A stretch of 20,746 nt of DNA from a virus. A program made the translations under genes and the position numbers. Within the stretch, counting starts at the first letter, position 1. Every line of letters starts with the position of its first letter. The notes under the pieces were generated by a model, which saw nothing but the letters and a program-made list of their open reading frames with translations, made no database searches and was not told the DNA's origin. This document shows positions 5,495 to 19,677 of this stretch, piece after piece. Location of the stretch: the IMG/VR virus record IMGVR_UViG_3300008110_000519, positions 1-20,746 of that record; one strand, 5' to 3'.

Positions 5495-5544
5495 TTGCTG
5501 TCACCCTTCCTCGTCCATCGCTCACGCATCATCTTGGCATAGTC

Positions 5545-5999: not shown

Positions 6000-6050
6000 A
6001 ACATTTTCGCCGTAGTTATAGAGTTGCCGCCTCTGTTGTTATTGATGAAT

Positions 6051-6081
6051 CAAAGATAAGTACCAATTTTGGTACTAGCAA
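6051..6081 (-). promoter_or_regulatory. Bacteroidota-type promoter for the minus-strand regulator unit
   Basis: Read on the minus strand, TTG (6081-6079) is followed after 20 bases by TATCTTTG (6058-6051), a full match to TAnnTTTG. This is the known -33/-7 arrangement of Bacteroides and Flavobacterium promoters. Transcription would start near 6044 and leave a leader of about 45 bases before the ATG at 5999. Confidence 0.7.
6059..6076. promoter_or_regulatory. 18-bp palindromic operator between -33 and -7
   Basis: AGTACCAATTTTGGTACT is a perfect inverted repeat with 8-bp arms and a TT centre. It fills exactly the spacer of the minus-strand promoter (the -7 box begins at the next base, 6058). 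A dimeric XRE protein bound here would block RNA polymerase. The natural candidate is the XRE protein encoded at 5545-5775; the one at 5087-5494 is the alternative. Confidence 0.7.
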
Positions 6082-6095
6082 GCAAAACAACATAA

Positions 6096-6108
6096 ATTTC
6101 GTCGAAAT
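6096..6108. repeat. Short palindrome in the control region
   Basis: ATTTCG-T-CGAAAT is a perfect inverted repeat with 6-bp arms and a single central base. It lies 20 bases upstream of the first palindrome and outside both predicted promoters. It may be a second regulator site of different sequence. Its short arms make chance possible. Confidence 0.35.
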
Positions 6109-6123
6109 GCCAAAATTTAGAAG

Positions 6124-6155
6124 GTTTTCAACGTTATCCACGATATGTTGAAAAC
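6124..6155. repeat. 9-bp inverted repeat overlapping three DnaA-box-like 9-mers
   Basis: GTTTTCAAC (6124-6132) and GTTGAAAAC (6147-6155) are perfect reverse complements separated by 14 bases. The element contains TTTTCAACG (6125-6133, 7 of 9 to TTWTNCACA), TTATCCACG (6134-6142, 8 of 9) and, on the minus strand, TTTTCAACA (6154-6146, 8 of 9). An AT-rich stretch follows (6151-6180, five G/C in 30 bases). It may be a DnaA-binding origin element or a large operator; the sequence alone does not decide. Confidence 0.45.
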
Positions 6156-6162
6156 AAATTAA

Positions 6163-6192
6163 ATATTCTATAAGCAAATCAGAGTAAGTTTG
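6163..6192 (+). promoter_or_regulatory. Probable late promoter upstream of terminase
   Basis: TAAGTTTG (6185-6192) matches the TAnnTTTG -7 box in full. No TTG lies 17-23 bases upstream; instead that interval holds ATATTCTATAAGCAAAT (6163-6179), repeated with one change upstream of the second tube-like gene at 19169-19185. This suggests a promoter helped by a phage activator rather than by a -33 contact. The start would be near 6199, twelve bases before the ATG. Confidence 0.45.
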
Positions 6193-6210
6193 GTCTGGTT
6201 AAGGCTCTGA

Positions 6211-6597
6211 ATGAGTAGCAATAGCGAATATACCATAGAAGAAATCAGGCCACTTATTGCCAAATACGCTGAACATCGTGCAGGTGGTTTCAGCAAAGAG
6301 TCATTTCCAGATTGTGACTACAGAACAATCGAATCACACCTCAACAACAACCCTGATTTGCAGCCCGAAAAGGAACTCGTACTGAAAGCGGAGAGAGAGG
6401 GGCGCATGGAATGGGAGCAGATAGGCAAGGATCTCGCAAAAGGCACAATCCAAGGCAACGCCACTTCCTACATCTTTAACATGAAGAACAGGTACGGATG
6501 GGCAGACAAGCAGACGATTGAGCAAACCAATACACACAGGATTACAATGACGGATGACGATGGTGAGCAAATCAATCCAGAAAACACGGATTTATAA
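6211..6597 (+). CDS. Terminase small subunit-like protein
   Basis: The 128-residue protein has an N-terminal half with helix-turn-helix-like character (YTIEEIRPLIAKYAEHRAGG, YRTIESHLNNNPD) and a C-terminal segment GNATSYIFNMKNRYGWADKQ preceded by EWEQIGKDLAKG. The sentence-like motif ‘W..IG..LA.G...GN..S.IF.MKNR.GW.D’ is typical of small terminase subunits in phages of Bacteroidota. Such proteins bind the packaging start site as a ring and load the large subunit. It is the first gene of the late block and overlaps the large subunit by 44 bases, which supports the call. The end of the protein (MTDDDGEQINPENTDL) is acidic and probably flexible. Confidence 0.82.
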   Translation: MSSNSEYTIEEIRPLIAKYAEHRAGGFSKESFPDCDYRTIESHLNNNPDLQPEKELVLKAEREGRMEWEQIGKDLAKGTIQGNATSYIFNMKNRYGWADKQTIEQTNTHRITMTDDDGEQINPENTDL

Positions 6598-7720
6598 GGC
6601 TAACCAGCAAGCTCTTTTACATAGCGGCAAGCGGTATGTGGTGAATGAGGGAGGTGCAAGGTCGGGCAAGACCTATTCCATCCTGCAACTGCTTATAGGC
6701 ATAGCAGACAACTGGAAAGGTTTATCGATCACAGTTTGCTCTCACTCCTTACCTCACCTGAAACGTGGTGCACTCAGGGACTTCCTTGAGATCATGGATA
6801 AATGGGGGCTGTACGATGAAAGCAGCCACAACCACACAGACCAGGTATATCAGTTCCCATCCGGCAGCTACATTGAATTTGTGGGGCTGGAGGATCCGGG
6901 AAAGGCTAGGGGGCCGGGTAGAGATATCTTGTTCATCAATGAGGCCAATCTGGTTAGCAAAGCTTTGTTTGACCAGCTGGATATGAGGACCCGTAAGAAG
7001 GTGCTGCTGGATTTAAACCCGGCAGATTTTGACTGCTGGTGTTACGGTGTTGCTGATGGACCAGATGCGGTTTGTATCCGGTCTTCGTACAAAGACAACC
7101 CATATCTACCACAGAGTCAGATCAGGGTGATTGAAGCGTACAAAGATGCCGATCCGTTGATGTGGAAGGTATTCGGATTAGGGGAGAGAGGCACCAGTGC
7201 AGAGCAGATTTACACCCATTGGAAGCTGTGCGATAAGATGCCGGAAGGTGGTGAGAGGTGGTACGGGATGGACTTCGGTTACACGGTACCCACAGGAATG
7301 GTGAAGGTGGTGCACTATGAAGGTGCGATCTATGCCGAGGAGATGATCTACCAGACGCACATGGCTACGCAGGATAGGATTGAGAGGCTTAAATCTTTGG
7401 CGATCAGTGAGTGGGATGAGATTATAGCGGACGCAGCAGAGCCAGACAGTATTGCCGAGATGTACAATGCGGGATTCAATATGTACCCAGCCGTGAAAGA
7501 TGTGTGGGCCGGGATCATGAAAGTAAAATCAATGCCGCTGTACGTGCTGAAGAGCAGCAAGAATTTGATAAAGGAATTGGGATCGTACAAGTGGAAGAAA
7601 GATAAGAACGACAAGATATTGGAGGAGCCGGTAAAGGAGAATGACCACTTGGTAGATGCGCTTAGGTATGCAGTATTCACAAAACTCAAGAATCCGGGAA
7701 TGGATTTCTTCATAAAGTAA
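6554..7720 (+). CDS. terL: Terminase large subunit (packaging ATPase and nuclease)
   Basis: The 388-residue protein has the two domains of large terminases. ATPase: Walker A GGARSGKT at residues 33-40, and Walker B ILFINEAN at 125-132 with catalytic E130. RNase H-like nuclease: YGMDFGYT with D240, IIADAAEP with D293, and DHLVDALRYA with D368, giving the expected acidic triad. It cuts concatemeric DNA and drives it into the prohead through the portal. The start is ATG 6554 or ATG 6560; both lie inside the small subunit gene. The length is a little short but normal for PBSX-type terminases. The portal gene begins five bases after the stop. Confidence 0.97.
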   Translation: MTMVSKSIQKTRIYKANQQALLHSGKRYVVNEGGARSGKTYSILQLLIGIADNWKGLSITVCSHSLPHLKRGALRDFLEIMDKWGLYDESSHNHTDQVYQFPSGSYIEFVGLEDPGKARGPGRDILFINEANLVSKALFDQLDMRTRKKVLLDLNPADFDCWCYGVADGPDAVCIRSSYKDNPYLPQSQIRVIEAYKDADPLMWKVFGLGERGTSAEQIYTHWKLCDKMPEGGERWYGMDFGYTVPTGMVKVVHYEGAIYAEEMIYQTHMATQDRIERLKSLAISEWDEIIADAAEPDSIAEMYNAGFNMYPAVKDVWAGIMKVKSMPLYVLKSSKNLIKELGSYKWKKDKNDKILEEPVKENDHLVDALRYAVFTKLKNPGMDFFIK

Positions 7721-7724
7721 CTGA

Positions 7725-9140
7725 ATGAATGTATTAGACAGGATGGCGGTTAGGTGGCTGGCAGGTAGGGTAAAGGGTATGAACCCCAACCAGACCGGAG
7801 CCATGATACCCGTTAATTCAGTGACCATACAGGGGTACAAATCCGAGGACTTTGTAAAGGCCTATGCCTCGTCATCGGGATTGTTCTCTGTGCTGAATCT
7901 GATCATCCGGAAAGCATGTACAATGCCCTGGTACCCGTATCAAGTGAAGAAAGGGGCAGAGGCGAAGGTTGCGCTGAATAGGTGGGTAGCGAAGAGCAAG
8001 ACACCGGGAGCATTGACATCAGGAACGATTGACACGATCATCAAAGAGCGCAAGGCTGCTTTTGATGACAGCATGATAGTAGACGGTTCACCACTGGCAA
8101 AGCGTTTAGCGAAACCTAGTGAGTACCAGAGCCAAGATGAGTTCTTTGAAAACTGCCTGGGATATATGCTCACTTCTGGTGAGGCAAATATCTGGGGTAA
8201 CACCGGTGATCCGAATGATACGGAGGGTGAGTTTGCCGAGATACTGGTACTACCTACGCAATTCATCGATGACTTCAATGATCCCAATGATCTGCATGGA
8301 TTGTTAGGGTACAGGTTTGCAGCAGGAAGTGGTATCAACATCAAGAAGGAGAACCTAGTCCGCTGGAAAAACTGGCATCCTGATTTCGATGCGGTGGATA
8401 GAAGGCACATGAGGGGGATCAGCCCGGTAGAGATCGCATGGAGGACGTACCTGATGGAACTTGAGGGTGGAAACTCTATGGCAAATACGCTTAAGAATGG
8501 TGGCGCGAGGGGAGCATTTGCGCCTGCACAGGTAACCCAAGGCATGCCAACGAAGTGGAGTGAAACACAGGTGGAGATGGCATTTCGGGAGCTGCAGAAG
8601 TGGGCCAAAGGGAATAGTAATAACGGTACGATCGGCATATTGGGATCACCTGTGGATTACCACAATTTCGGATTAAGCCCAGTGGATATGGACATCATCA
8701 AAGTGATGGACTTGACACTGCATCAGTGGTGCCGGGTGTTTGGTGTTCCTACGGTGCTGTTTGATTCTGAGCATACGAGTGACAACAACTACCAGAATGC
8801 GATGCGGGACCTGGTAAGCAATACGGTGGTGCCGATGCTTTCCAGGCTGAGGGATAAGCTCAATGGGTGGTTGCTGCCGAGATATGGGTTAGAAGGTAAG
8901 GTGTGGATCGATTTCGATATTTCTGCCCTGCCTGAGCTACAGAGAGACATGGAGAAGATGGTTAACTGGATCGTGAAGGCGTGGATGTTGTCACCCAACC
9001 AGCAGCTTGAAATGATGGGTTACGAGCCTAGCCCGGATCCATTGATGAATGAGATCTACATACCCGGGAATCTGAAGAAGCTGAGCGACGTTGGTATGGA
9101 TTTATCACCATTACCGAATGATCCCAATGTGCAGTATTAG
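7725..9140 (+). CDS. Portal protein (HK97/phage portal family)
   Basis: A 471-residue protein located directly after the large terminase, as usual. Family-like landmarks are an N-terminal SSGLFSVLNLIIRKACTMPW segment (the ‘v..cv..ia..va.lp..’ pattern), EFFENCLGYMLTSGEANIWG in the centre with the typical ‘l...GnAyi’ feature, a RGISPVEIAWRT segment (usual R-G-x-S-P), and a GGARGAF motif followed by the stem/crown region with a helical DLVSNTVVPMLSRLRDKLNG near the C-terminus. Portals form the dodecameric ring through which DNA is packaged and to which the tail connector binds. Length and position fit the family well. Confidence 0.93.
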   Translation: MNVLDRMAVRWLAGRVKGMNPNQTGAMIPVNSVTIQGYKSEDFVKAYASSSGLFSVLNLIIRKACTMPWYPYQVKKGAEAKVALNRWVAKSKTPGALTSGTIDTIIKERKAAFDDSMIVDGSPLAKRLAKPSEYQSQDEFFENCLGYMLTSGEANIWGNTGDPNDTEGEFAEILVLPTQFIDDFNDPNDLHGLLGYRFAAGSGINIKKENLVRWKNWHPDFDAVDRRHMRGISPVEIAWRTYLMELEGGNSMANTLKNGGARGAFAPAQVTQGMPTKWSETQVEMAFRELQKWAKGNSNNGTIGILGSPVDYHNFGLSPVDMDIIKVMDLTLHQWCRVFGVPTVLFDSEHTSDNNYQNAMRDLVSNTVVPMLSRLRDKLNGWLLPRYGLEGKVWIDFDISALPELQRDMEKMVNWIVKAWMLSPNQQLEMMGYEPSPDPLMNEIYIPGNLKKLSDVGMDLSPLPNDPNVQY

Positions 9141-9303
9141 GGTGATATGTGGAAGATTGTTTGATGTGTACCAGGTGGTATTAAATGGGAGTGTTATTGC
9201 GGAGTACTGGATAAAGGTGGAGAGTGATTTAACGATAAAAGAGGTTGTCCGTGAGCATAGAAGAGCAGCAGTTATGGAAGATGGTTATGGCAAGGTATCC
9301 TAA
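9127..9303 (+). CDS. Possible 58-residue protein between portal and head genes
   Basis: The frame from ATG 9127 reads CGRLFDVYQVVLNGSVIAEY and then VESDLTIKEVVREHRRAAVM, with a regular pattern of hydrophobic residues. GTG 9142 is an alternative start that would avoid overlap with the portal gene. No Shine-Dalgarno sequence is visible before either start. The next small gene starts inside it at 9251. The pattern of a beta hairpin followed by a helix is protein-like, but I do not recognise it. Confidence 0.45.
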   Translation: MCSIRVICGRLFDVYQVVLNGSVIAEYWIKVESDLTIKEVVREHRRAAVMEDGYGKVS

Positions 9304-9406
9304 GCTGGAGAATGAGCGGACCTGTGCGATCGAGAAGAGGCTGAGGGATTTGGCGCGGCAATCGATGTTTGAAAAACTGAAGAAGCAACACACAAAAACT
9401 ACATGA
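9251..9406 (+). CDS. Small 51-residue protein with GTG start
   Basis: A frame begins at GTG 9251, preceded by AGAGG seven bases upstream (9239-9243), one of the better ribosome sites in the window. The product is highly charged and helical (SIEEQQLWKMVMARYPKLEN then ERTCAIEKRLRDLARQSMFE), with a basic end (KLKKQHTKTT). It overlaps the possible gene at 9127-9303 by 53 bases and ends two bases before the next ATG. The family is unknown. Its position between portal and minor head genes suggests a small structural or assembly protein. Confidence 0.5.
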   Translation: MSIEEQQLWKMVMARYPKLENERTCAIEKRLRDLARQSMFEKLKKQHTKTT

Positions 9407-9407
9407 T

Positions 9408-9644
9408 ATGACAGAGTTGGAGCAATTGATTTATGACAGTCTGGTGGCGCCCATTGATTATCCAGATGAAACTGCTGAAAAAGATGTAGAGAAACTTTGG
9501 GAAGAGCACAGAAAGGTTTTTGAGCAGGTGTACAGAGAAACAGCAGGGAGAATAGCTAAAGCTGTTTTGGAAAACGGTTACGTCAAAGGCGATTTGGTAT
9601 TGAGGGGTGAAGAATTGGTCACAAAGATTGCAAGAGTAGGTTAA
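9408..9644 (+). CDS. Small helical protein of unknown function
   Basis: A 78-residue acidic protein: TELEQLIYDSLVAPIDYPDE, then KDVEKLWEEHRKVFEQVYRE and AGRIAKAVLENGYVKGDLVL. The single substantial helix in the middle is amphipathic. It begins two bases after the preceding stop codon and is followed directly by another short frame. It lacks a recognisable motif. In the head gene cluster it could be a minor structural or assembly protein, but the sequence offers no direct indication. Confidence 0.6.
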   Translation: MTELEQLIYDSLVAPIDYPDETAEKDVEKLWEEHRKVFEQVYRETAGRIAKAVLENGYVKGDLVLRGEELVTKIARVG

Positions 9645-9746
9645 ATGAAAACATCAATCAGTATTCCGATAGCGGCAATTAGGTTGAATGCAACGCAGGT
9701 TTTGGCGATGATTGGAGAAAGGATGTTTGTTTTTAGTTATGAATGA
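9645..9746 (+). CDS. Possible 33-residue leader-like frame coupled to the MuF-type gene
   Basis: A short frame from ATG 9645, which directly follows the stop of the preceding gene, to TGA 9746. The product (KTSISIPIAAIRLNATQVLA, then MIGERMFVFSYE) is moderately hydrophobic. Its stop overlaps the likely start of the MuF-type gene (ATG 9739), so translating it would bring ribosomes to that start. It may be a real micro-gene or only a spacer. Confidence 0.3.
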   Translation: MKTSISIPIAAIRLNATQVLAMIGERMFVFSYE

Positions 9747-10581
9747 GCAGGACAGGACAGCATATTGGATCGAAGCGGAGCGGATGCGGCTAAAGGTTGA
9801 GCTGAAGTACGTCCCTAAGATATTCAAGGCCCTGAAAGCTCATATCAGTTCTTTCATTACGGCGTACAAGGTAGATCCCAGCGGAGCAGTGGGAGCGATC
9901 AACATGGAGCTATGGAATGATGACCTGCTAAAAGTTTACAATGCCATGTTCCGGGAGAGCTTCATGATCACTGCGAAGGCCACGTACAAAAGCCTGAAGC
10001 GGATCAAGCTAATTCCTGGCATGGGAGTGAATGAGGAGTGGACACAGATTGTGAACGATTGGCTGGCACGTAACGGGCTTCAGATGGTGACGAGGATGAG
10101 CGGCCGCACAAGGGAGATTATCCTCGCAATTGTCAACGAGACGCTCCAGGAAGGGGTTCAGAACGGATGGGGTGCTGAGGTGGTGGCTAGAACAGTGGTG
10201 AAGCGGTTGCAGGATGAGGAATACACCTTCTCTCTCAACCGGGCGAGGATGATAGCCAGAACAGAAACCGGCAGGGCAGCGAATGAGGGACACATGGCTG
10301 GCGCGAGGTCATCAAGGATAGTGCTGGATAAGGTCTGGATCAGTGCGAAGGATAACCGGACGCGAAGGATGCCGCGGGATGAGTTTGATCATCTCAATTT
10401 GGACGGTCAGACAGTAGGGATGGATGAGCAGTTTGTAGGGCGTAGTGAAATGGGAGAGTTGAGGGTAAATCAGCCGGGGGATGTGAGCGCACCAGCGGGG
10501 TTTACGATCAATTGCAGGTGCAGGGTAGCGTTCCAACCGAGAAGGGACGCAAATGGTAGGGTGATAAGAAGATCAATCTGA
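9739..10581 (+). CDS. Minor head protein, SPP1 gp7 / Mu gpF family
   Basis: A 280-residue protein. The C-terminal half carries the MuF signature: ARTETGRAANEG near residues 173-184, KDNRTRRMPRDEFDHLNLDG with the conserved D-x-R-T-R and H-x-x-L-x-G, LRVNQPGDVSAPAGFTINCR, and the paired cysteines C259 and C261. Proteins of this family sit inside or near the portal and take part in head morphogenesis or DNA delivery. The N-terminal half is helical. The frame extends upstream to a TTG at 9712, but I prefer ATG 9739, which begins with MNEQDRTAYWIEAER. It precedes the prohead protease by four bases, as in many siphophages. Confidence 0.88.
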   Translation: MNEQDRTAYWIEAERMRLKVELKYVPKIFKALKAHISSFITAYKVDPSGAVGAINMELWNDDLLKVYNAMFRESFMITAKATYKSLKRIKLIPGMGVNEEWTQIVNDWLARNGLQMVTRMSGRTREIILAIVNETLQEGVQNGWGAEVVARTVVKRLQDEEYTFSLNRARMIARTETGRAANEGHMAGARSSRIVLDKVWISAKDNRTRRMPRDEFDHLNLDGQTVGMDEQFVGRSEMGELRVNQPGDVSAPAGFTINCRCRVAFQPRRDANGRVIRRSI

Positions 10582-10585
10582 AATC

Positions 10586-11293
10586 ATGATACGAAAATAC
10601 ATAGAGACAAAGGCCGCAGACGTGGACACTTCCAACCGAAAGGTAAAGGTGGTGATTTCCCGGATGGGTAACCTTGATCTCGATAAAGACATTATTGAGC
10701 TGGGGGCTTTTGCCAAGACCATCGCCGAAAAAGGTCCCAAAGGATCCCAGATGATCTGGCACCTGGCAGACCATGGATGGAGGGTTGCGGAATCGGGCCT
10801 CAGCAAGTATGAAGAACTGTATGTGGAAGGGGATAAACTGATTGGTATAGCTCCTTACCGTGATACGTGGCTGTGGAGGGAGCAGATGTGGCCGCTATAC
10901 GTTGCGGGTGACATCAACCAGCACTCCATCGGTTTTTCCATCGTGAAGAGTGAAAGGAATGAGCAGACCGGCATCAGGGTTATCAAAGAGGTTGACCTGT
11001 ATGAAGGATCCGCGGTATTGTGGGGGGCAAACCCAGAAACCCCAACTGAGGAGGTTATGAAGAATCTGTTTCTACAGAAGAAAGAGAGCTTTGAGGACAG
11101 GGTGCAGTGGGTTTGCAAAGCCATCAAAGATGGCAAGTACAAAGATGATGAATCGCTATTGATATTGGAATTGAAGCAACTTGAAGACATCTACCAGGCC
11201 AGCCGAAAGGGCACTCAGCCGGGAGGGGATCCCACTGAGCCGCAAAAATGGAAAGAGGAGATGGCTTTCATTTTAGCCAAGCATTTCATCTAA
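10586..11293 (+). CDS. Prohead protease, HK97 gp4-like (herpesvirus assemblin fold)
   Basis: The 235-residue protein starts with a beta-rich domain (RKVKVVISRMGNLDLDKDII) that contains the family motifs: MIWHLADH (H59 or H63 candidate catalytic His), GDINQHSIGFS with S114 as likely nucleophile, and DLYEGSAVLWGANPETPT around E140. It cleaves the scaffold-like N-terminal part of the capsid protein during maturation. Residues 160-235 are a charged, helical extension that may bind the capsid shell. Its position between the minor head and capsid genes is standard. The stop TAA is followed by the A/T-rich leader of the capsid gene. Confidence 0.93.
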   Translation: MIRKYIETKAADVDTSNRKVKVVISRMGNLDLDKDIIELGAFAKTIAEKGPKGSQMIWHLADHGWRVAESGLSKYEELYVEGDKLIGIAPYRDTWLWREQMWPLYVAGDINQHSIGFSIVKSERNEQTGIRVIKEVDLYEGSAVLWGANPETPTEEVMKNLFLQKKESFEDRVQWVCKAIKDGKYKDDESLLILELKQLEDIYQASRKGTQPGGDPTEPQKWKEEMAFILAKHFI

Positions 11294-11329
11294 GCAAACA
11301 AAATTTATTTAAATCAAACTTTTACGCAA
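11289..11329 (+). promoter_or_regulatory. A/T-rich leader of the capsid gene
   Basis: The 36-base gap after the protease is rich in A and T (for example AAAATTTATTTAAATC). It has no Shine-Dalgarno sequence, as is usual for strongly translated genes of Bacteroidota. TCTAAGCAAACAAAATTT (11289-11306) resembles the TCTAnnAGCAAAT core at 6167-6179 and 19173-19185 with two bases missing. No full TAnnTTTG box follows. It is therefore a weaker third member of that motif or a translation enhancer. Confidence 0.35.
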
Positions 11330-12556
11330 ATGGAAATGAAAGATTTTCTCTCGGCGCTGGATTCAAAGATGGAAGCCTACAAAACAGGTCTTTCCACTGA
11401 GAACCAGAAAGCACTTGACGGTATCAAAGCCGAAATCAAGGCCGCATTCGACAAGGCTGAAGAAGCCAAAACATCCGCTGCTGAGCTGAAAACCGCTCTG
11501 GACAAGCTGGAAGAAAAAGCAGACAAGATCCTGGCAAAGGCTGGCCGTCCCGGTTCTGGTGCGTCAGTAAAAACTTTCGAAGGAGAGCTCAATGAAAAGC
11601 TTGCTGAGAAATCTGAACTGCTGAAAAGCGCAAGGCAGTCAAAGAAAGGCTTTGCCATCGAACTGGAAAGCAAAGTGGTAGGTAACATGGGATCATCTGC
11701 GAACCTGACTGGTACCTACTTCGTGCCCCCTACCGTAGTTCCCGGCGTGGTGCCTTTCCCCTATGAAAGCGTACACGTGCGCGACCTGTTCCCTAAAGGT
11801 ACTACCAACAGCAACGTGGTAAGGTACATCAGGGACAACAACGGTGAAGGTGGACCCGCTACTGTTGCGGAAGGAGCTCTGAAGCCACAGGAAGACAGGG
11901 ATTTTGCGATCCTTGACGCTCCCGTGCGGAAGATCGCAACGTACTTCCGTATCCCTGAAGAGATGATCGAGGACATCGACTTCCTGTCATCTTACCTGTC
12001 TGGTATCGGTACTCAGGAGGTAATGGCGGTGGAAGACGCGCAGCTGCTGTACGGTGACGGTACTGGTCAGAACCTGACTGGTTTGAACGTTGCTGGTACT
12101 GCATTTGCTGCCGGCACTTCCGTGATCGGTGCTTCTGCAAACCAGTTCGACGTGCTGGGTGCTGCTAAGAAGCAGCTTCGCAATGCAAAATTTGGTGGTC
12201 CATTGGTGGCACTCATCAACCCTACCGACTATTTCGATATGAGGTGGAGGAAAGACACTGCCAACAACTACATCTTCCAAAGCAACCAAGGCCTTACCCC
12301 ATTGCAGATTGATGGTATTACCATCCTGGAGCATACGGCGGTAACTGCTGGCGGTTTCTTTGTGATCAGCCCAAGTGCTGCGCAGGTGTTTGACCGCAAA
12401 GGCCTGACTGTACGTTTGTACGATCAGGATCAGGACAACGCGATCCGCAACATGTGGACAATGGTGATCGAGAAGCGTCTTGCCTTCCCGGTTTACCAGC
12501 CCGGAGCAATCATCCGTGGTACGTTCACTGCTGGTATCACAGACTTGACATCGTAG
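11330..12556 (+). CDS. Major capsid protein, HK97 family, with N-terminal scaffold domain
   Basis: A 408-residue protein. Residues 1-75 are a helical, Ala/Lys/Glu-rich region (LDGIKAEIKAAFDKAEEAKT and on), the delta domain that acts as scaffold. A linker of Gly/Ser/Lys follows to about residue 105. The HK97 fold starts around residue 115, with TYFVPPTVVPGVV, VRDLFPKGTTNSNVVRYIRD (N-arm and E-loop region), VRKIATYFRIPEEMIEDIDF (spine helix), and LLYGDGTGQNLTGL (P-domain/A-domain landmark). Cleavage by the neighbouring protease probably falls between residues 100 and 120; the exact bond cannot be seen. The gene is followed by a hairpin at 12566. Confidence 0.95.
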   Translation: MEMKDFLSALDSKMEAYKTGLSTENQKALDGIKAEIKAAFDKAEEAKTSAAELKTALDKLEEKADKILAKAGRPGSGASVKTFEGELNEKLAEKSELLKSARQSKKGFAIELESKVVGNMGSSANLTGTYFVPPTVVPGVVPFPYESVHVRDLFPKGTTNSNVVRYIRDNNGEGGPATVAEGALKPQEDRDFAILDAPVRKIATYFRIPEEMIEDIDFLSSYLSGIGTQEVMAVEDAQLLYGDGTGQNLTGLNVAGTAFAAGTSVIGASANQFDVLGAAKKQLRNAKFGGPLVALINPTDYFDMRWRKDTANNYIFQSNQGLTPLQIDGITILEHTAVTAGGFFVISPSAAQVFDRKGLTVRLYDQDQDNAIRNMWTMVIEKRLAFPVYQPGAIIRGTFTAGITDLTS

Positions 12557-12565
12557 TCATAAAAT

Positions 12566-12587
12566 GGGAGGGTGTAACAGCCCTCCC
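12566..12587 (+). terminator. GC hairpin after the capsid gene
   Basis: GGGAGGG (12566-12572), an 8-base loop, and CCCTCCC (12581-12587) form a perfect 7-bp GC stem nine bases after the capsid stop. There is no run of T after it (TAATTCAAA), so it is a weak terminator at best. A role in 3' protection of the capsid message, or partial attenuation of the genes that follow, is equally likely. Confidence 0.5.
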
Positions 12588-12599
12588 TAATTCAAATGT

Positions 12600-12809
12600 A
12601 TGAGGGTACGTTACGATTTTGTTGGCAATCTGGTGGTTTACACAAGCGTGATCAATGGTGAGGCATTTCAGTCTATCCACAAACGCGACGGCATGACTGA
12701 TGAACAGGCCAAAGGATCATTCCACAGAGACCACGCCCGTGAGATTGTCATTTTACAACAACAAAAACTACAAAATGAGAGTAAAAGCATTACGCAGCCT
12801 ACATGGTAG
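12600..12809 (+). CDS. Small phage protein of unknown function
   Basis: A 69-residue product: VRYDFVGNLVVYTSVINGEA is strand-like, and later DGMTDEQAKGSFHRDHAREI is helix-like. The C-terminal end overlaps the following gene (start 12775) by 35 bases. Codon pattern and hydrophobic spacing are protein-like. No family is recognised. Position between the capsid and connector genes suggests a small accessory protein of the head, for example decoration or completion, but this is only context. Confidence 0.5.
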   Translation: MRVRYDFVGNLVVYTSVINGEAFQSIHKRDGMTDEQAKGSFHRDHAREIVILQQQKLQNESKSITQPTW

Positions 12810-12987
12810 CTACGGATCACTGGCTGAAGGTCAGGAAACCGTTATCAAGGATAGCCTCGCAAAAGAATTGATTGAAGCCGGATTGGTGGAGCAGGTGAGC
12901 GAAGAGCAGCCCGTGGACAAAGATCCAGAGCCTGCAAAATCTTCTATCAAGGTCACAGGTGGCAACAAGGGTAAAGTAAAAGAATAA
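12775..12987 (+). CDS. Small head-region accessory protein
   Basis: I take ATG 12775, preceded by an A-rich sequence, rather than the upstream in-frame ATG at 12700, whose extra 25 residues overlap the previous gene and look unlike protein. The 70-residue product reads VKALRSLHGSYGSLAEGQET, then VIKDSLAKELIEAGLVEQVS and a Lys/Pro/Asp-rich tail. The first part fits small phage proteins found between capsid and connector genes, which have a short strand, a ‘G..v.v....a..Li..Gl.e’ pattern and a charged tail. Their function is not known to me. Its stop shares one base with the next ATG. Confidence 0.65.
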   Translation: MRVKALRSLHGSYGSLAEGQETVIKDSLAKELIEAGLVEQVSEEQPVDKDPEPAKSSIKVTGGNKGKVKE

Positions 12988-13181
12988 TGGAACGCTCACA
13001 TCAACCGAAGAGGGAGATCGTGGTGATCAAGAAAAAGCAGATCCAAGTAAAGAAGAAGCAAACATCTCACATCAGCAAGCATGAATTTGATCCTTTCAAA
13101 ACCACAGATAGTACAGGACCTGGCGGCGGAGATCATCAGCCCAACGGAGCTAAAGAACTGGATGCAGATCAGCTTCAATGA
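12987..13181 (+). CDS. Possible small basic protein overlapping the connector gene
   Basis: The frame starts on the last base of the preceding stop (TAATG), a sign of coupling. Residues 1-31 are very basic (KREIVVIKKKQIQVKKKQTS). The last third (PFKTTDSTGPGGGDHQPNGA and on) lies inside the connector gene, out of frame. Because the connector start at 13081 is well supported by similarity of its N-terminus, the 101-base overlap is unusual. The frame may be a true gene with a short basic product or only the untranslated spacer. Confidence 0.4.
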   Translation: MERSHQPKREIVVIKKKQIQVKKKQTSHISKHEFDPFKTTDSTGPGGGDHQPNGAKELDADQLQ

Positions 13182-13620
13182 GCAGGATGACGAGGTTTAC
13201 CAGGTATGTAAGTCTGCACGCACATTGCTGGAGGAGTACACCAGCAAGTCGTTTGGGACGAAGACCATGCGTGCAGAAATTGAAGTGGATGAGGACTTTG
13301 TAAGGCTTCCGTACGGTCCGCTGCAATCAGTGGTATCAATCGTGTTGCATGTTGGCTTCGGAAATAACGAGACCCTTGTGGCTGGAACCGATTATGAAGT
13401 GGTGGGAACCAGAGTAAGGGTGTTACGCCAAGGGTTTATGACGTTTACCTGCCGTGTTGGCATGGTGGATCTTCCGGAGGATCTGAGGGCTGACATTCTC
13501 AGGCTTGGGGCTTGGATGTTCCAGAACAGGGGGATTCAGTTTGAAACGGGTGACGAGATCAAAAAGTATCCTGATTGGGCGGCGCTGGCTGCAAACAGGT
13601 ATATCGAAAGGGTGATATGA
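13081..13620 (+). CDS. Head-tail connector protein, HK97 gp6-like
   Basis: The 179-residue protein begins LSKPQIVQDLAAEIISPTEL and continues LKNWMQISFNEQDDEVYQVC and ARTLLEEYTSKSF. This is the typical start of gp6-like adaptor proteins (‘..Is.eelK.wlri....dD.li..li..Are.lE.yt.rsl’). The middle is beta-rich (VRLPYGPLQSVVSIVLHVGF, with a conserved L-P-x-x-P-L-like segment), and the C-terminal helix carries DLPEDLRADILRLGAWMFQN. It forms the ring under the portal to which the tail attaches. Its stop overlaps the next ATG (ATGA). Confidence 0.87.
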   Translation: MNLILSKPQIVQDLAAEIISPTELKNWMQISFNEQDDEVYQVCKSARTLLEEYTSKSFGTKTMRAEIEVDEDFVRLPYGPLQSVVSIVLHVGFGNNETLVAGTDYEVVGTRVRVLRQGFMTFTCRVGMVDLPEDLRADILRLGAWMFQNRGIQFETGDEIKKYPDWAALAANRYIERVI

Positions 13621-14048
13621 GCAAAGGGTTTTTTATAGAGCTGGACGGGCTGCAGCCGCTCATAGCGAAGCTGAAAGGGATGGGTAAAGACATTGAGGAG
13701 ATAGTGGCAGCAGAGATTGAAGGCACGGCCAGGGAGATCGAGGAAAAGGCGGCACAGAGGGTGCCAAAAGATACAGGAGGATCGGGGCTCGCTGGAGCGA
13801 TAACCTCTAGGGAGGTAAACAAATTGAATTGGGAGGTGGTAGCGCAAAAGAACTACGCCGCCTATGTGGAGTTCGGAACGGGAGGGCTGGTAGATGTGCC
13901 GGCAGGGCTGGAGGATTACGCGATACAGTTTAAGGGCCGGGGGATAAAGCAGATCAACATGAGAGCGCGGCCGTATCTGTTCCCCAGCTATTTGGAGGAG
14001 ACCAGGAAGCTGATTAAGATACTCAAAGAAGAACTTAAAGCACGATGA
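13617..14048 (+). CDS. Tail completion / head-tail joining protein, HK97 gp10-like
   Basis: The ATG at 13617 overlaps the connector stop and gives 143 residues; the frame extends a little further upstream, but that part overlaps the connector. Landmarks are IEEKAAQRVPKDTGGSGLAG (the ‘.A...aPv.TG.Lr.si’ pattern), KNYAAYVEFGTG (the hallmark Y-A-x-x-x-E-x-G-T), and RARPYLFPSYLEETRKLI (‘.a.PFl.pa.e..’). These are diagnostic of HK97 gp10-type proteins, which complete the tail end before it joins the head. It overlaps the following gene by four bases. Confidence 0.9.
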   Translation: MSKGFFIELDGLQPLIAKLKGMGKDIEEIVAAEIEGTAREIEEKAAQRVPKDTGGSGLAGAITSREVNKLNWEVVAQKNYAAYVEFGTGGLVDVPAGLEDYAIQFKGRGIKQINMRARPYLFPSYLEETRKLIKILKEELKAR

Positions 14049-14464
14049 AAGATATTGGAGCATCACTAAGGACAATTTACGGCACTCTACTGTCCGCTAT
14101 CACCTATGGGGGTAGTGATGTTCCTTTCTATGACCATGAACCGTATGTAACCACGCCAAAGAATTACATCTTCTTTCAGGGTTACAATTTCGGGTCAGAC
14201 AACAACGATCAGCATTTTGTGAGTGAGGGTACTGTAACATTACAGGTTGTTACGAAGAGCAACATGAAAAACGATAAGACGGCGTGCGATGCGATCGCAA
14301 ACAGTGTGCTTCAGGCGTTGCTGCCATACGTGGACAGGTTCGATGCTTATTTTCAAATTGAAATAACAGGGGCAGAGCTGCCCGGTGATATACATTCTCA
14401 GGATGGTACCGTACACATCAACAGGAAAATTTTAAACATTAATAACCGATTAAATCAGATTTAA
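14045..14464 (+). CDS. Tail terminator-like protein
   Basis: A 139-residue protein directly after the gp10-like gene and directly before the tail tube, the standard place of the tail terminator (lambda gpU-type or DUF3168-type). The content fits: an N-terminal helix (DIGASLRTIYGTLLSAI), a segment VPFYDHEPYVTTPKNYIFFQ, a beta strand TVTLQVVTKSNMK, a helix CDAIANSVLQALLP, and final strands (HINRKILNINNRL). The family resemblance is by order of elements rather than by a strict motif. It probably caps the tube at the end of tail polymerization. Confidence 0.7.
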   Translation: MKDIGASLRTIYGTLLSAITYGGSDVPFYDHEPYVTTPKNYIFFQGYNFGSDNNDQHFVSEGTVTLQVVTKSNMKNDKTACDAIANSVLQALLPYVDRFDAYFQIEITGAELPGDIHSQDGTVHINRKILNINNRLNQI

Positions 14465-14899
14465 ATGGCAGAATTACAGGGCAAACTTCTCCCGTTAGAA
14501 GTGGATTTCACAGGCGCAGGCTCCACCTACAAGATCATGGTGTGCATGCAGAATTTCGACTACAACTTGGACGTGCCTATCGATGTGCAGGAAACTGACT
14601 GCGGTCAGATTGCCTCTCCCGGCGTTCCAGGGGTCAACGTAAACCTGACCGTTGTGGAAGAGCTGGCACCATCAGGATCACAGGCCTCTTTCAAAGAGGT
14701 GCATGATGCAGCACTGGCCGGAACGAAGGTAAAGGTACGGGTGCAGAATCCTGTTGTGGGATCTGTTCTTCTCGGTACCAGGATCTTCTCAAATTTCGAT
14801 GCGTACTTCAGTAACGTAACATTGAACAAGCAGACCACAGGTCCTGTGACGTTCAGCGCGACTTTGCAAAGTACAGGAGCAATTGACGGAACAGTTTAG
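14465..14899 (+). CDS. Major tail tube protein
   Basis: A 144-residue, beta-rich protein immediately upstream of the tail assembly chaperones, as expected for the tube subunit. Landmarks include IMVCMQNFDYNLDVPIDVQE, ALAGTKVKVRVQNPVVG and a final VTFSATLQSTGAI, which matches the end of TP901-1/lambda-gpV-like tubes (‘..fs.tl.s.G.i’). Its layout is similar to that of the second tube-like protein at 19204-19677: both have NFD in the first third, a LAG/V-R-V strand in the middle and FS-x-T-LQ-x-x-G near the end. Start and stop are tightly placed (spacing of 0 and 2 bases). Confidence 0.82.
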   Translation: MAELQGKLLPLEVDFTGAGSTYKIMVCMQNFDYNLDVPIDVQETDCGQIASPGVPGVNVNLTVVEELAPSGSQASFKEVHDAALAGTKVKVRVQNPVVGSVLLGTRIFSNFDAYFSNVTLNKQTTGPVTFSATLQSTGAIDGTV

Positions 14900-14901
14900 T
14901 T

Positions 14902-15360
14902 ATGATTGGATACACACAAGCTACTATCCTCGGTAAAGTCCGGGGCTTAAAATTCGGGTCTCTTGCTGCTGAGAATATAACGATGGAGTTAGTAGCTCTC
15001 GGTGCTGCCACCGGGGGCAACTATTCCACGTCCATGATCACTGTTATCATCTATTGGGGACTGTATAACAACGCATGGAGCAAAAAGGAAGACATTGACT
15101 TCACATTCGAGCAGGTGAGCGATTGGGTGGATGAGAACGCCGGTAATGATGAGCTGGTTGAGGTGTTTGGCGAGATAGCGAAATGCTATGAGGCCAGCAC
15201 ATCTACAAAGCAAACCATTGAGCGGTTGGAGCAGAAGTTGGACGAGATAAAAAAAAAGACAGTGTTGACCTCGGAAGCAGGGCAGGATGGGCAACCATCA
15301 GGGGGTTCGCAATGGGTAAACTTGGATGGTCCATCGATGAGTACTACAGTACAACCTTAG
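14902..15360 (+). CDS. Tail assembly chaperone, short form (G-like)
   Basis: This 152-residue frame lies between tube and tape measure, the position of the lambda G/T chaperones. Residues 1-50 include ITMELVALGAATGGNYSTSM and ITVIIYWGLYNNAWSKKEDI; residues 65-115 are helical and acidic (WVDENAGNDELVEVFGEIAK, TIERLEQKLDEIKKK). A run of nine A bases at 15249-15257 ends residue 119. Most ribosomes would continue to the stop at 15360 and add a Gly/Ser/Thr-rich tail. Some should shift to -1 and extend into the next frame. The protein keeps the tape measure soluble during tail assembly. Confidence 0.85.
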   Translation: MIGYTQATILGKVRGLKFGSLAAENITMELVALGAATGGNYSTSMITVIIYWGLYNNAWSKKEDIDFTFEQVSDWVDENAGNDELVEVFGEIAKCYEASTSTKQTIERLEQKLDEIKKKTVLTSEAGQDGQPSGGSQWVNLDGPSMSTTVQP

Positions 15361-15608
15361 CCGACCTGATCCTGGCATACCGGGCGTACAATGAGAAGGT
15401 GACGGACGAGTGGCGGCAGACGCGATTGGTGATGTTCACGATGGGGCGGCTGTGGGGAGATCCAAAGAAGCCGATCAACAGGCCAGAAGATTTATTCCCA
15501 CTGCAAGGTGATGAGGTTGTAGGTGGTGAATTGACTAAGGAGGAAGTGGCAGAGGCACTAAAACAATTTGAACAACAGTTAGGGTATGGAGCAGTTTCTG
15601 AAAGTTAA
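14902..15608 (+). CDS. Tail assembly chaperone, frameshifted long form (GT-like)
   Basis: Predicted product of the -1 shift: 119 residues of the short form, then about 116 residues from the -1 frame, giving about 235 in all. The extension begins KDSVDLGSRAGWATIRGF (after the site) and continues with GWSIDEYYSTTLADLILAYR, TDEWRQTRLVMFTMGRLWGD and a C-terminal region with TKEEVAEALKQFEQQL. The ‘e.y..ltl.dl......y......w...r....’ content is typical of T-domains, which recruit the tape measure. An ATG at 15312 could also start the -1 frame alone (98 residues). It overlaps the tape measure gene by 23 bases. The existence of the fusion follows from the sequence and known siphophage practice. Confidence 0.78.
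15249..15258 (+). promoter_or_regulatory. Programmed -1 frameshift site A_AAA_AAG
   Basis: The zero frame reads ATA AAA AAA AAG, so A_AAA_AAG (15252-15258) is in the correct phase, with A_AAA_AAA just before it. Slipping by -1 enters the frame that holds the next ORF. That frame has its last upstream stop at 15219-15221 and is open to 15608, so the shift must occur between 15222 and 15360, and this is the only strong slippery site there. I see no obvious stimulatory stem after it. Confidence 0.8.
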
Positions 15609-17196
15609 GATAGGGGCGGACGTTGGAGATCTCACCAAAGGTGTGAATGATGCCAACCGCGCTCTTTCCAGCCTTAAGCAACCCGTAGCCAATGCAGGAG
15701 CCACATTGACCAATTTCAACAGGATAGTACAAGATGCGCCATTTGGTTTAATCGGTATCCAAAACAACATCGAGCCACTATTCACTTCTTTTGGTCAGTT
15801 GAAAGCGCAGGCCGGCGGTACGGGTGCAGCATTAAAAGCATTGGGTGCTTCATTGGTTGGTCCGCTGGGTGTTGTGGCCGGCATTTCCTTTGTTACATCC
15901 CTTACTACTACCCTGGTCCAGAAATACGGATCATTAGGTGCTGCGGTGGAGGCATTGACCAGGGCAAACGATCCATACTTCAAGCAGCAGCAGCAGATTG
16001 CCGCCATCAGGAAAGAAGCGGTGAAAGATGCCGGTGAAGAAATTGCAAAGCTTAATGTACTTGCTACTGTTTCAGCAGATACAAGCGTATCACTCGAGAA
16101 CAGAAAGAATGCAGCCAATGAGCTGTTGAAGGTGTACAAAAAATACCTGCCGGCGCTCACTCAGGAAGCTATTTTGAATGGCCAAGCCGCAGATGCCATT
16201 AATAAGGCAAAAGACGCTATTCTCAATAAAGCCCTTGCCCTTGCTGCTGAAAAGAAACTGGCAGAGGTGGGTGCTAAGATACTTGATAACCAACTGGCAC
16301 AGATCGACGCTGTGAACAGGTACAGTACTGCTCAGAAAGAGTTGAGCGATCAGGTTGCAAAGGCCAATAAAGAAGGTCTGAGAGGCCGTGAGGGTGTGAA
16401 TACGCAGACGGTGTTCTTCAATACCCAACTGGAAAAGTCCGAAGGCAATTTGAAAAAGCTTGGATCTGAGGCGCAGAACCTGCAAAAAGAATACGATACC
16501 CTATTAAAACTTGCTACTGGATTTGCCATCAAAGCGGGTAGCGCATTTGCTCCTCCAGGTAAAGAATCCGCGCCAAAGATCACACAGGTCATTCAACGGG
16601 CGCAGGAGTTGAGGATCATCCCGGACAAGGTGCGAATTGATGCGAGTGAGACCACAGCAGATATTGAGCAGGCAAGGAATTTCCTGCTGGATAACGGGCT
16701 GAATATTCCGATCAATATTGACGTGCCACGCGAAACCTTTGACAATCTGGCGAAGCTCGGTGAAGCTGCTAAAAATGCATTTGACCTCGAATTGTACCGG
16801 GCAAAGGCTAAGGAGTTCAAAGCGATCCTGGCTGAAGGCCTCGCACAACCATTGGGAGACCTGATATTCAACTTTCTCGATCAGGGCAAGGTAGGCTTCA
16901 AAGAATTTGCTGATGCAGCCATTTCATCTATAAAGCGCATTGTGGCGCAGCTGATCGCTACCAAGATCATTCAATTGATCGGCAATCTGGTATTCCCTGG
17001 CGCGGGTGGTGTGATTGGCAAGGGAATAGGATCCGCAATCGGCAGCGCGATATTCGGCGGCGTAGTGAATCCGAACCTTTCCGGATTATCCGGCGGCGGG
17101 CTTGCACTATTTGGCGGCGTAAGTTTTGAGATTAAAGGGCCCAACCTCGTAGGGGTCCTGAATAACACTAACGCATCAATACAGAGGGCGGGATAA
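15586..17196 (+). CDS. Tape measure protein
   Basis: A 536-residue protein following the chaperone pair. It opens LKVKIGADVGDLTKGVNDAN, the typical ‘..i.aD.s....l..a...l..l’ start, and is helical and Ala/Lys/Gln-rich over most of its length. A hydrophobic segment at about residues 86-111 (GPLGVVAGISFVTSLTTTLV) and a Gly-rich hydrophobic end (about 470-515, GGVIGKGIGSAIGSAIFGGV) may insert into the host membrane during DNA entry. At about 0.15 nm per residue, the tail would be near 80 nm long (inference). It is short for the family. Its stop shares one base with the next ATG. Confidence 0.88.
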   Translation: MEQFLKVKIGADVGDLTKGVNDANRALSSLKQPVANAGATLTNFNRIVQDAPFGLIGIQNNIEPLFTSFGQLKAQAGGTGAALKALGASLVGPLGVVAGISFVTSLTTTLVQKYGSLGAAVEALTRANDPYFKQQQQIAAIRKEAVKDAGEEIAKLNVLATVSADTSVSLENRKNAANELLKVYKKYLPALTQEAILNGQAADAINKAKDAILNKALALAAEKKLAEVGAKILDNQLAQIDAVNRYSTAQKELSDQVAKANKEGLRGREGVNTQTVFFNTQLEKSEGNLKKLGSEAQNLQKEYDTLLKLATGFAIKAGSAFAPPGKESAPKITQVIQRAQELRIIPDKVRIDASETTADIEQARNFLLDNGLNIPINIDVPRETFDNLAKLGEAAKNAFDLELYRAKAKEFKAILAEGLAQPLGDLIFNFLDQGKVGFKEFADAAISSIKRIVAQLIATKIIQLIGNLVFPGAGGVIGKGIGSAIGSAIFGGVVNPNLSGLSGGGLALFGGVSFEIKGPNLVGVLNNTNASIQRAG

Positions 17197-19142
17197 TGGC
17201 ATACGCGGTAAAATATCAGTACGATTTCAGGGCATTCCAAGGGGATAGCTGCACCGTTTACTTTTTCTTCAATGAATATTCCGGCCCGGTCACTGAGCTA
17301 TCGGCAGGACCCAAAGGATTTGTGCTTCGCGAGTTCAACACCAATCAAGAATTTTTTAAGCATATCAGGGGCTTTCAAGCAGAGATGGAGATCCTTTCTG
17401 ATGGGGTAACTATTGATGATTTCCTGACCGAAAACGAAACAGACATACAGGTGCAGTTGTGGGTGAATGGTTTCGTGTACTGGATCGGCTGGCTCATGCA
17501 GGACGATTTTCAGGATGAGTGGAGGAATAGCCGGCACTTCTTCATTTTGAGGGCCACGGACGGACTAGGCCAGCTCGCTACATCCGGCACCAACCCCAAC
17601 GGAGGATTGAACCAGGTGGAGAGTTATTTGGTGTACGCGCTGGACGGCACGCCTCTAAAGTACCAAGGTGCCACAATCATCAATCAGTTGTTTTACGAGG
17701 GGATGAATACTGCGTCCAATGCAAATGCACTGGCTCAGGCATACCTTGACGCGAAAACATTTGAGGGTGACGGTGCGGAAAAGATCGTGGAGAAGATCAA
17801 CAAGGCATACAATCAAACGATATTCCAGTATCAAGGCAGGTGGTGGATAGTGCGCATGGAGCATTTTCTTCACCCGGGCAATATCTCCGGCTTTGTCAAG
17901 AACTTCCTCAGCAATACGCCGTTCTCAAAGAGCTTCATTGTCAATGTTGGCGTTACCCAGGATATTGTTCCCATACAGCCCTACATGCAGAAGTTGTTCC
18001 GAAGAGGGTTCAAGATCGACAGGATCAATTTTCTTTATGAGTTTCCCAATGAAATCATCTGCAACCAGAGCTTTTTAAGGGGTGCCAGGATATTACCAAC
18101 CACGGATAAATACTATGTGGAGTGTTGGACGCTCTACAGGGGCAATCTCGGTTCGTACAATCCTGGCACAGCTCAGTTTTACCGGAAAGAGGAGTATGAT
18201 GTGGATGGGAATATAACAGACAACTATGTGGTGATTGAGCGCGATCCGGCCCAACCTCATTTCATGCGCTCCAGTGGGTTGATCATGAACACGGGTGATA
18301 GTATTCAGGTTGAGGTTGATTACAGAACGCAAAGGAACCCACAGAACGGGATATCAAACATAAACGTAGGGGTAGTACAGTTAGAGCCATTTGCCGGGAC
18401 AACCAATTACACCCTTGACGATGACGGCGTATGGTACCCGACAAATCTTACCTATTCAACCAACGTTAAAAGTTTGACCCTTGCCCTTTCTGCAGGTGAG
18501 AGTGACGGCAACTGGAACACGTATTCCGTGAGGTCTAAAGGGGTACCTGTACCGGGAAAGATTTACATCCTGCTTTACAATGTCCACACCCTTAGAAACT
18601 CTGACGCTAATTTCAAAGGTCTTCAGATTACCATCAGGGAGAGCAACCGCCAGCTGGGGGTGAGTGGGGATTTCGACAGATACACCAGGCCGGAAGATGT
18701 GCGCCAGAACTATGAGGAGCAGACCTATATCGACGATGCCAATAACCGGGTACACAAGGGGGCGTTGTTTTTTAACGGCGAACTGACCGGCGACCGGTGG
18801 TTCAGGGGATCATTCCCATCCGAAAGGCTGACATTCAAAAGGCACAAAGCCATTGCTCACATGCTGCTGGACAGAAAGCGCAGGTACAAGATCGACGCGA
18901 CCCTGCTGGGCATCATGTGGACAGATGGTGGGGTGCGAAAACCCATCGGGCTGATGAACAGGTTTGTGTTTACGGATGATGCGCCTGGCAAGCAGTTCAT
19001 GATCCTGAACCTGAAAGAGATAGACTTTGTGGCGGGCACGATGAGTGTTACGCTGATTGAGACATGGGACAGTGGGGATGATGATAACCCGGCGAACTAC
19101 CCGACGCATGATTTTGGATACATCTATGAAAGTGGTAATTAA
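17196..19142 (+). CDS. Distal tail / tail hub protein with an inserted beta-sandwich domain
   Basis: A 648-residue protein starting on the stop codon of the tape measure gene. Residues 1-115 are beta-rich and aromatic (AYAVKYQYDFRAFQGDSCTV, VYWIGWLMQDDFQDEWRNSR), like the baseplate/Dit-type proteins of phages of Bacteroidota; residues 150-230 form a helical part with FQYQGRWWIVRME. Residues 349-485 look like a separate beta-sandwich (GDSIQVEVDYRTQ, TLALSAGESDGNWNTYSVRS) similar in pattern to carbohydrate-binding modules. The end (RRYKIDATLLGIMWTDGGVR, MILNLKEIDFVAGTMSVTLI) is again hub-like. It probably closes the tail tip and carries a receptor- or glycan-binding domain. Hub assignment rests on position and general pattern. 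Confidence 0.7.
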   Translation: MAYAVKYQYDFRAFQGDSCTVYFFFNEYSGPVTELSAGPKGFVLREFNTNQEFFKHIRGFQAEMEILSDGVTIDDFLTENETDIQVQLWVNGFVYWIGWLMQDDFQDEWRNSRHFFILRATDGLGQLATSGTNPNGGLNQVESYLVYALDGTPLKYQGATIINQLFYEGMNTASNANALAQAYLDAKTFEGDGAEKIVEKINKAYNQTIFQYQGRWWIVRMEHFLHPGNISGFVKNFLSNTPFSKSFIVNVGVTQDIVPIQPYMQKLFRRGFKIDRINFLYEFPNEIICNQSFLRGARILPTTDKYYVECWTLYRGNLGSYNPGTAQFYRKEEYDVDGNITDNYVVIERDPAQPHFMRSSGLIMNTGDSIQVEVDYRTQRNPQNGISNINVGVVQLEPFAGTTNYTLDDDGVWYPTNLTYSTNVKSLTLALSAGESDGNWNTYSVRSKGVPVPGKIYILLYNVHTLRNSDANFKGLQITIRESNRQLGVSGDFDRYTRPEDVRQNYEEQTYIDDANNRVHKGALFFNGELTGDRWFRGSFPSERLTFKRHKAIAHMLLDRKRRYKIDATLLGIMWTDGGVRKPIGLMNRFVFTDDAPGKQFMILNLKEIDFVAGTMSVTLIETWDSGDDDNPANYPTHDFGYIYESGN

Positions 19143-19203
19143 CAAGGTGTGTGTAATTAGGGCCTCATATATTCTAAAAGCAAATTAAATTTGATTATAG
19201 CAA
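19143..19203 (+). promoter_or_regulatory. Possible internal late promoter before the second tube-like gene
   Basis: This 61-base gap is the largest within the tail genes. It holds ATATTCTAAAAGCAAAT (19169-19185), one base different from 6163-6179, and then TAAATTTG (19186-19193), a full TAnnTTTG box. The latter is also part of the palindrome CAAATT-A-AATTTG (19181-19193). The start would fall close to the ATG at 19204, so the message would have almost no leader. Confidence 0.4.
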
Positions 19204-19677
19204 ATGGCTGATGTTGTAAATGGGAAGTATCTGGTTCTTTACGCACAGATCGGGGCCGACCTTCTGCCCTTTGCCTGTGCTAAGAATTTCGATATGGTCA
19301 TTACCACAGAGGCCATTGAATTAGCACCCAAAACAGATTCCACATTCAGGGCTTTCAAGCCAGGGAAAAAAGATATCAAGTTCAACGGCGGCGGCCTTAT
19401 AAAATTGGTCCAGACCGGGATAAACACCACGACGAGCATAGTAGTGGCGCAGCTTGCCGGGCAGACGTTCAAGGTTAGATTTTCACTGACTGACCCGCAA
19501 AACAATGAGGTGTATTATGAATGTGATGTGATGGTTCTTGAAACCAACCAATCAAAAACATCAGGCAGCACAGCGTCATACACTTTCTCATTGCAGGCGA
19601 TTGGTAAAGTGACGATAGTGGGCGGCACAAATGTGGGCGGGGTATTCACTCAACAGTACACAACACAATTCGTTTAA
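19204..19677 (+). CDS. Second tail-tube-like protein
   Basis: A 157-residue beta-rich protein: VLYAQIGADLLPFACAKNFD, then TTEAIELAPKTDSTFRAFKP, an ITI/V-type central strand set with AQLAGQTFKVRFSLTDPQNN, and TASYTFSLQAIGKVTIV near the end. This is the layout of tail tube proteins of phages of Bacteroidota (‘l.a.sts..l......e......t..wr...p’ ending in ‘f...lq..G.l’). A tube protein already stands at 14465, so this is a second member, located after the hub. It could be a tail-tip extension, a fibre anchor or a moonlighting tube variant. Its own promoter-like leader supports separate control. Its stop shares one base with the next ATG (TAATG). Confidence 0.7.
   Translation: MADVVNGKYLVLYAQIGADLLPFACAKNFDMVITTEAIELAPKTDSTFRAFKPGKKDIKFNGGGLIKLVQTGINTTTSIVVAQLAGQTFKVRFSLTDPQNNEVYYECDVMVLETNQSKTSGSTASYTFSLQAIGKVTIVGGTNVGGVFTQQYTTQFV

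Follow-up and report, generated by a model that had tools for sequence, protein, structure and literature searches.

Two genes in the late region of an uncultivated phage are preceded by nearly the same 17 bases. This raises the question of whether the repeated 17-mer marks late promoters driven by a phage activator, as the initial annotation proposed, or whether both genes are read from promoters of the host's ordinary type. We favor the latter reading, two ordinary host-type promoters that share an AT-rich upstream stretch, with a probability of about three in four, because it is the bacterial promoter box, and not the 17-mer, that is found again in related phages.

The phage and its probable host

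The window, that is, the whole stretch of DNA analyzed, is a complete IMG/VR virus record of 20,746 bases and is probably a fragment of a phage genome. PHROG matches were obtained for the small and large terminase, portal, head morphogenesis, protease, capsid, adaptor, and tape measure proteins, and for two tube-like proteins, both assigned to phrog_1407. The small terminase subunit gene (TerS; 6211–6597, + strand; phrog_309, E 8.6e-05) is the first of the late cluster, and the second tail-tube-like gene lies at 19204–19677 (+ strand; phrog_1407, E 7.6e-08). The two phrog_1407 (major tail protein) matches, 14465–14899 and 19204–19677, flank the tape-measure gene, one on each side. Directly 3′ of the capsid gene, at 12557–12599, there is a strong inverted repeat (GGGAGGG...CCCTCCC), which was terminator-like on the minus strand in our scan and is possibly an attenuator lowering the expression of the genes after the capsid.

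The candidate activator named in the initial annotation is an 84-residue LuxR-type (GerE) helix-turn-helix protein encoded at 3822–4076 (+ strand; 27.5 bits, cut-off 23.5). Among the named phages of the phage collection, neither this protein nor the second tube protein had a match, and a wider search for relatives of the latter (alignment A1) again returned three loci, none beyond the earlier set. The best named relatives of the large terminase (TerL) share about 36% identity with it and belong to phages of Bacteroides, Phocaeicola, and Parabacteroides. A scan of host genomes gave a single match, the L126 contig in a Gammaproteobacteria MAG; we took this contig as likely misbinned. The assignment was for this reason left at Bacteroidota, with no genus given, and the TerL matches together with the promoter type point to a host of the Bacteroidota type.

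The 17-mer pair

The two copies, ATATTCTATAAGCAAAT (6163–6179) and ATATTCTAAAAGCAAAT (19169–19185), are both on the + strand and have a single mismatch. As had been reported, they occupy the non-coding gaps that form the leaders of TerS and the second tube-like gene. Each is followed by a TAnnTTTG box (6185–6192 and 19186–19193), at a distance of 5 bases in the TerS leader and none in the other, in agreement with the initial annotation. By eye, the 17-mer has no palindromic or repeated internal structure. The only further copy in the 20.7 kb is a minus-strand match with three mismatches at 19189–19205, so that with two copies it does not recur before several late genes. A shortened form, TCTAAGCAAA (11289–11298, + strand), does exist ahead of the capsid gene as claimed; it overlaps the stop codon of the protease gene, which ends at 11293, and no TAnnTTTG box follows it. 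We rejected it as part of a promoter, and it is not a leader element.

How surprising the pair is depends on where one looks. In 40 dinucleotide shuffles of the whole window, 17-mer pairs with at most one mismatch occurred 1.6 ± 1.6 times, and the real sequence has one; this count is unremarkable, and the only notable point is that both copies sit in gaps. Pairs of this kind between different non-coding gaps were found in 0.1% of 1000 gap shuffles, or in 2 of 1000 with a corrected gap list, and a length-free local comparison of the TerS gap with the second-tube gap gave shuffle fractions of 0.0005–0.0015. These gap-restricted figures are post hoc, because the pair was first picked by eye and the restriction, which follows the framing of the initial annotation, was set after it had been seen. 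Even so, 2 in 1000 sits uncomfortably with an origin of the pair by pure chance.

The search for the 17-mer in related phages revealed that it is absent from their late leaders. In the 33 other non-redundant TerS leaders the mean best match was 10.12 of 17 bases, against 10.28 in shuffled sequences, and the 17-mer was absent from the orthologous second-tube leader of L086. Across IMG/VR, with A and T both accepted at the variable base, there were 39 matches, three of them contigs of the same phage; the 36 outside matches compare with 34 for a reversed-pattern control. Of these 36 (the three same-phage contigs left out), 29 lie in open frames of 100 codons or more, and none is followed by a TAnnTTTG box. 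The 17-mer was therefore rejected as a wide promoter motif on the reversed-pattern control and the 33 leaders. Its distance to the core promoter is not fixed either: when the two window leaders are aligned with their boxes in register, only 13 of 32 bases agree (shuffle fraction 0.14). The proposal of a promoter family with the 17-mer as its activator-bound motif is not supported by these results: the motif is missing from the leaders of relatives, is at background level in IMG/VR, and is out of register by 5 bases.

The −7 boxes and the predicted promoters

On the + strand of the window TAnnTTTG occurs at three sites only, two of them in these gaps and the third in the capsid gene. The box before the second tube gene, TAAATTTG, fits both TAnnTTTG and TAHHTTTG, and the one before TerS, TAAGTTTG, fits only the former, having G at the fourth position. 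According to the available portion of the work on Flavobacterium johnsoniae promoters (PMC6847099), TAHHTTTG is the Flavobacterium refinement of the −7 element, transcription starts 4–5 nt after this element, the −33 motif is weak and much less evident, and AT-rich motifs lie at −18 and −28. The claim that both boxes lack a TTG at −33 holds for an exact TTG 17–23 nt upstream, which neither promoter has; it needs the qualification that TTA, with two of the three bases, stands at this place 23 nt before the TerS box (6159–6161, + strand). TTG takes the place of TTA in the TerS leader of L008 and in the second-tube leader of L086. Since the −33 motif is weak in the Flavobacterium promoters described in that portion, its absence here would not call for an activator.

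Our model is that the two gaps carry promoters of the type used by sigma-ABfr, the housekeeping sigma factor of Bacteroidota. One would start the late operon just before TerS, and the other, an internal promoter, would serve the second tube-like gene. RNA polymerase would recognize the boxes at 6185–6192 and 19186–19193, and by the Flavobacterium spacing, as given in the part of PMC6847099 at hand, RNA would start at about 6197–6198 and 19198–19199, leaving leaders of about 13–14 nt (TerS) and 5–6 nt (second tube). The same spacing puts the 17-mers at about −34 to −18 and −29 to −13 of the predicted starts, where an AT-rich upstream stretch is expected, and the 17-mers would be part of that stretch. 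Their near identity would then be due to chance in AT-rich sequence or to a short-lived shared stretch, and not to a conserved binding site. From the sequence we infer the sigma factor, the start sites, the timing, and the function of both promoters.

The occurrence of the box in related phages agrees with this model. From 80 TerL loci we obtained 72 rows with a TerS candidate, 54 distinct leaders of 120 nt, and 34 non-redundant ones; a script picked the TerS starts, and some of its choices may be incorrect. TAnnTTTG was present within 70 nt before TerS in 16 of the 34 leaders, compared with 1.5 ± 1.25 over 500 shuffles, whose maximum was 8; L004, the window's own phage, is counted among both the 34 and the 16. 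The remaining 18 had no such box in their last 70 nt. The stricter TAHHTTTG was found in 15 of 34 at −70 to 0, in 2 at −140 to −70, in 5 at −210 to −140, and in 1 and 0 of 34 in two regions inside the TerS gene. Of 17 boxes found, 16 obey TAHHTTTG, the sole exception being the window's own TAAGTTTG. For the second tube we examined the gene following homologues of 17196–19142, with 37 of 46 loci used (L084 and L085, which are the same phage, L178–L181, L187, L201, and L202 were dropped) and 19 distinct next-gene leaders counted, the remainder running off the contig end, lacking a next gene, or being duplicates. A box was present in 3 of the 19 (L086, L199, and L200) and in none of the other 16; in L199, L200, and several others, the next gene was taken as the second-tube homologue by the look of its first 40 residues only. 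We read the TerS counts and the three second-tube boxes as a sign that the −7 box keeps its position ahead of the corresponding genes of related phages; the leaders without a box in both sets weigh against the model. On this point the initial annotation fared well: late promoters are very probably present in both gaps, relatives having boxes in the corresponding position.

In some relatives the box is very close to the gene or is followed by a hairpin. It ends 4–5 bases before the start codon of TerS in L015, L017, L018, and L037 and of the second tube gene in L199, L200, and L086, which, with the known 4–5 nt spacing, predicts leaderless or near-leaderless late mRNAs. Five TerS leaders (L008:3092–3130, L009, L011:1440–1496, L012, and L007:1480–1540) have a G+C-rich hairpin directly after the −7 box and then a T-run that ends at the start codon of TerS, an arrangement that looks like a terminator or a stabilizing 5′ hairpin overlapping the late promoter; fold z-scores are about −2.4 to −3.5 for L008, L007, and L012. 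The window phage has no such element. Its predicted transcripts fold no better than shuffled sequences (6197–6260, z 0.09; 19198–19260, z 0.65), and an RNA hairpin in the window leaders was rejected on these scores. The longer stretch 6100–6240 does fold (z −2.42), because a DNA palindrome lies upstream of the start site.

The TerS leader and competing explanations

This palindrome, TTTTCAAC / GTTGAAAA (6125–6154, + strand), is centered at about −57 and is a candidate regulator site. It can be followed into L005, whose large terminase is 91% identical to that of the window phage and which holds the orthologous TerS leader. L005 retains the palindrome, with a left arm one base shorter, a 20-base identical run from its 3′ arm, ATAAGCAAA, and the distance of 38 bases from the right arm to the box. 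It has changed 4 of the 17 bases of the 17-mer, and TAAGTTTG has become TACTTTAG; even the nearest relative thus conserves the TerS box poorly. Conservation of the leader as a whole (74 of 101 aligned columns) does not exceed that of the TerS coding DNA (286 of 387). Elsewhere in IMG/VR, the palindrome pattern was found in no contig besides those of the window phage and L005. With a box that departs from the consensus in both phages and this shared palindrome, the TerS promoter is the less ordinary of the two; a regulator may act there, and the palindrome would be a better candidate site for it than the 17-mer.

The surroundings of the palindrome differ between the two phages. A homologue of the helix-turn-helix gene 5087–5494 ends just upstream of it in L005. 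The 614 bases that follow this gene in the window (5495–6108), exactly absent from L005, hold a minus-strand cassette with an HTH_3 repressor-like gene (5545–5775, − strand), a second small gene for a protein of 75 residues (5772–5999, − strand), and a promoter (6051–6081, − strand) consisting of TTG, 20 nt, and TATCTTTG, a full consensus match, with the inverted repeat AGTACCAAAATTGGTACT (6059–6076) in its spacer. Three 8-mers of the TTWTCMAC type start within 30 bases in the window, at 6125, 6134, and 6147 (TTTTCAAC, TTATCCAC, and TTTTCAAC in reverse). L005 (1055–1083) has two of them and TTTCAAC, the middle one being TTATCCACA, which we take to be a DnaA box. These DnaA-box-like 8-mers adjoin an AT-rich stretch beside TerS and could belong to a packaging or replication site.

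The likeness of the two leaders was also compared between phages. The second-tube protein of L086 is 66% identical to that of the window, and the leader of its gene has the form TTG-N23-TAATTTTG five bases before ATG. Aligned by the box, this leader and the TerS leader of L008 agree at 22 of 32 positions upstream of it and at 15 of 23 in the spacer (shuffle fraction 0.002), and when the L008 leader is slid along L086, the second-tube leader ranks first. L008 and L086 are 91.7% identical over 2,495 bases; since they are separate contigs, we can only presume that they are the same phage. The window TerS leader matches the L086 second-tube leader at 19 of 32 bases (0.0025), and the window second-tube leader matches the L008 TerS leader at 18 of 32 (0.005); most of the 36 leader pairs examined were at or near chance. 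The stretch shared within a phage would be the 17-mer in the window phage and TATTGAATAnnATnTAnnAAAGTTT before TAAnTTTGAA in the L008/L086 sisters. The two promoters might then be a co-evolving pair, alike within a phage and drifting between phages, as if each phage's own regulator read its own version. We hold this to be improbable, and such a claim would need more than two promoters in two lineages; were it correct, it would suggest that phages encode a class of regulators not yet described.

A more restricted role for an activator is that the 17-mer is its site in this phage only, bound for example by the LuxR-type protein 3822–4076, with relatives using other sequences. We consider this unlikely, even with a GerE protein encoded in the window, a pair that so few gap shuffles reproduce, a low fraction in the direct gap comparison, and the resemblance between the L008 and L086 leaders. 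Such a site would have to tolerate a shift of 5 bases relative to the box and four substitutions in the L005 orthologue, and it would have neither internal symmetry nor a third proper copy. The opposite view, that the pair arose purely by coincidence and that one or both gaps lack a working promoter, with transcription from upstream reading the gene, draws on the 1.6 pairs expected per window, on the off-consensus TerS box that L005 does not keep, and on the many homologous leaders without a box. It is hard to reconcile with two of only three + strand TAnnTTTG sites falling in these gaps and with the strong positional enrichment of the box in relatives, and we would give it little weight. It is also rather improbable that the TerS leader serves mainly as a site of packaging (cos/pac) or replication, with TerS or DnaA binding the palindrome and the DnaA-box-like TTATCCAC, and the 17-mer as part of the AT-rich flank beside them. 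The clustered 8-mers in both phages and their position next to TerS fit such a site; the restriction of the palindrome to the window phage and L005 does not, and the second 17-mer before the tube gene would be left unexplained.

If two ordinary promoters are indeed present, the late genes of uncultivated phages of the Bacteroidota type could be read by the host rule, TAHHTTTG with little or no −33 element. This rule would show where the late operon begins and would place another promoter within the tail module, with no new activator invoked. Among the papers listed in our literature search, none dealt with the late promoters of Bacteroidota phages; the search turned up PMC6847099 and PMC10309648, both available in part.

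As far as the available part of PMC6847099 goes, the predicted window promoters resemble the sigma-ABfr promoters (TTTG / TAnnTTTG) of F. johnsoniae in having a −7 box, a weak or missing −33 element, AT-rich sequence upstream, a gene start a few bases downstream, and a box position that is kept before the late genes of relatives. They differ in that the TerS box has G where the Flavobacterium consensus avoids it. Late promoters that need an activator, such as the C-dependent ones of phage Mu (PMC4461284), are similar in serving late genes, and the TerS leader adds an imperfect core promoter and an upstream palindrome. Unlike promoters of that kind, the window has no conserved site common to both promoters, its 17-mer is out of register with the core promoter, and its activator is only a candidate.
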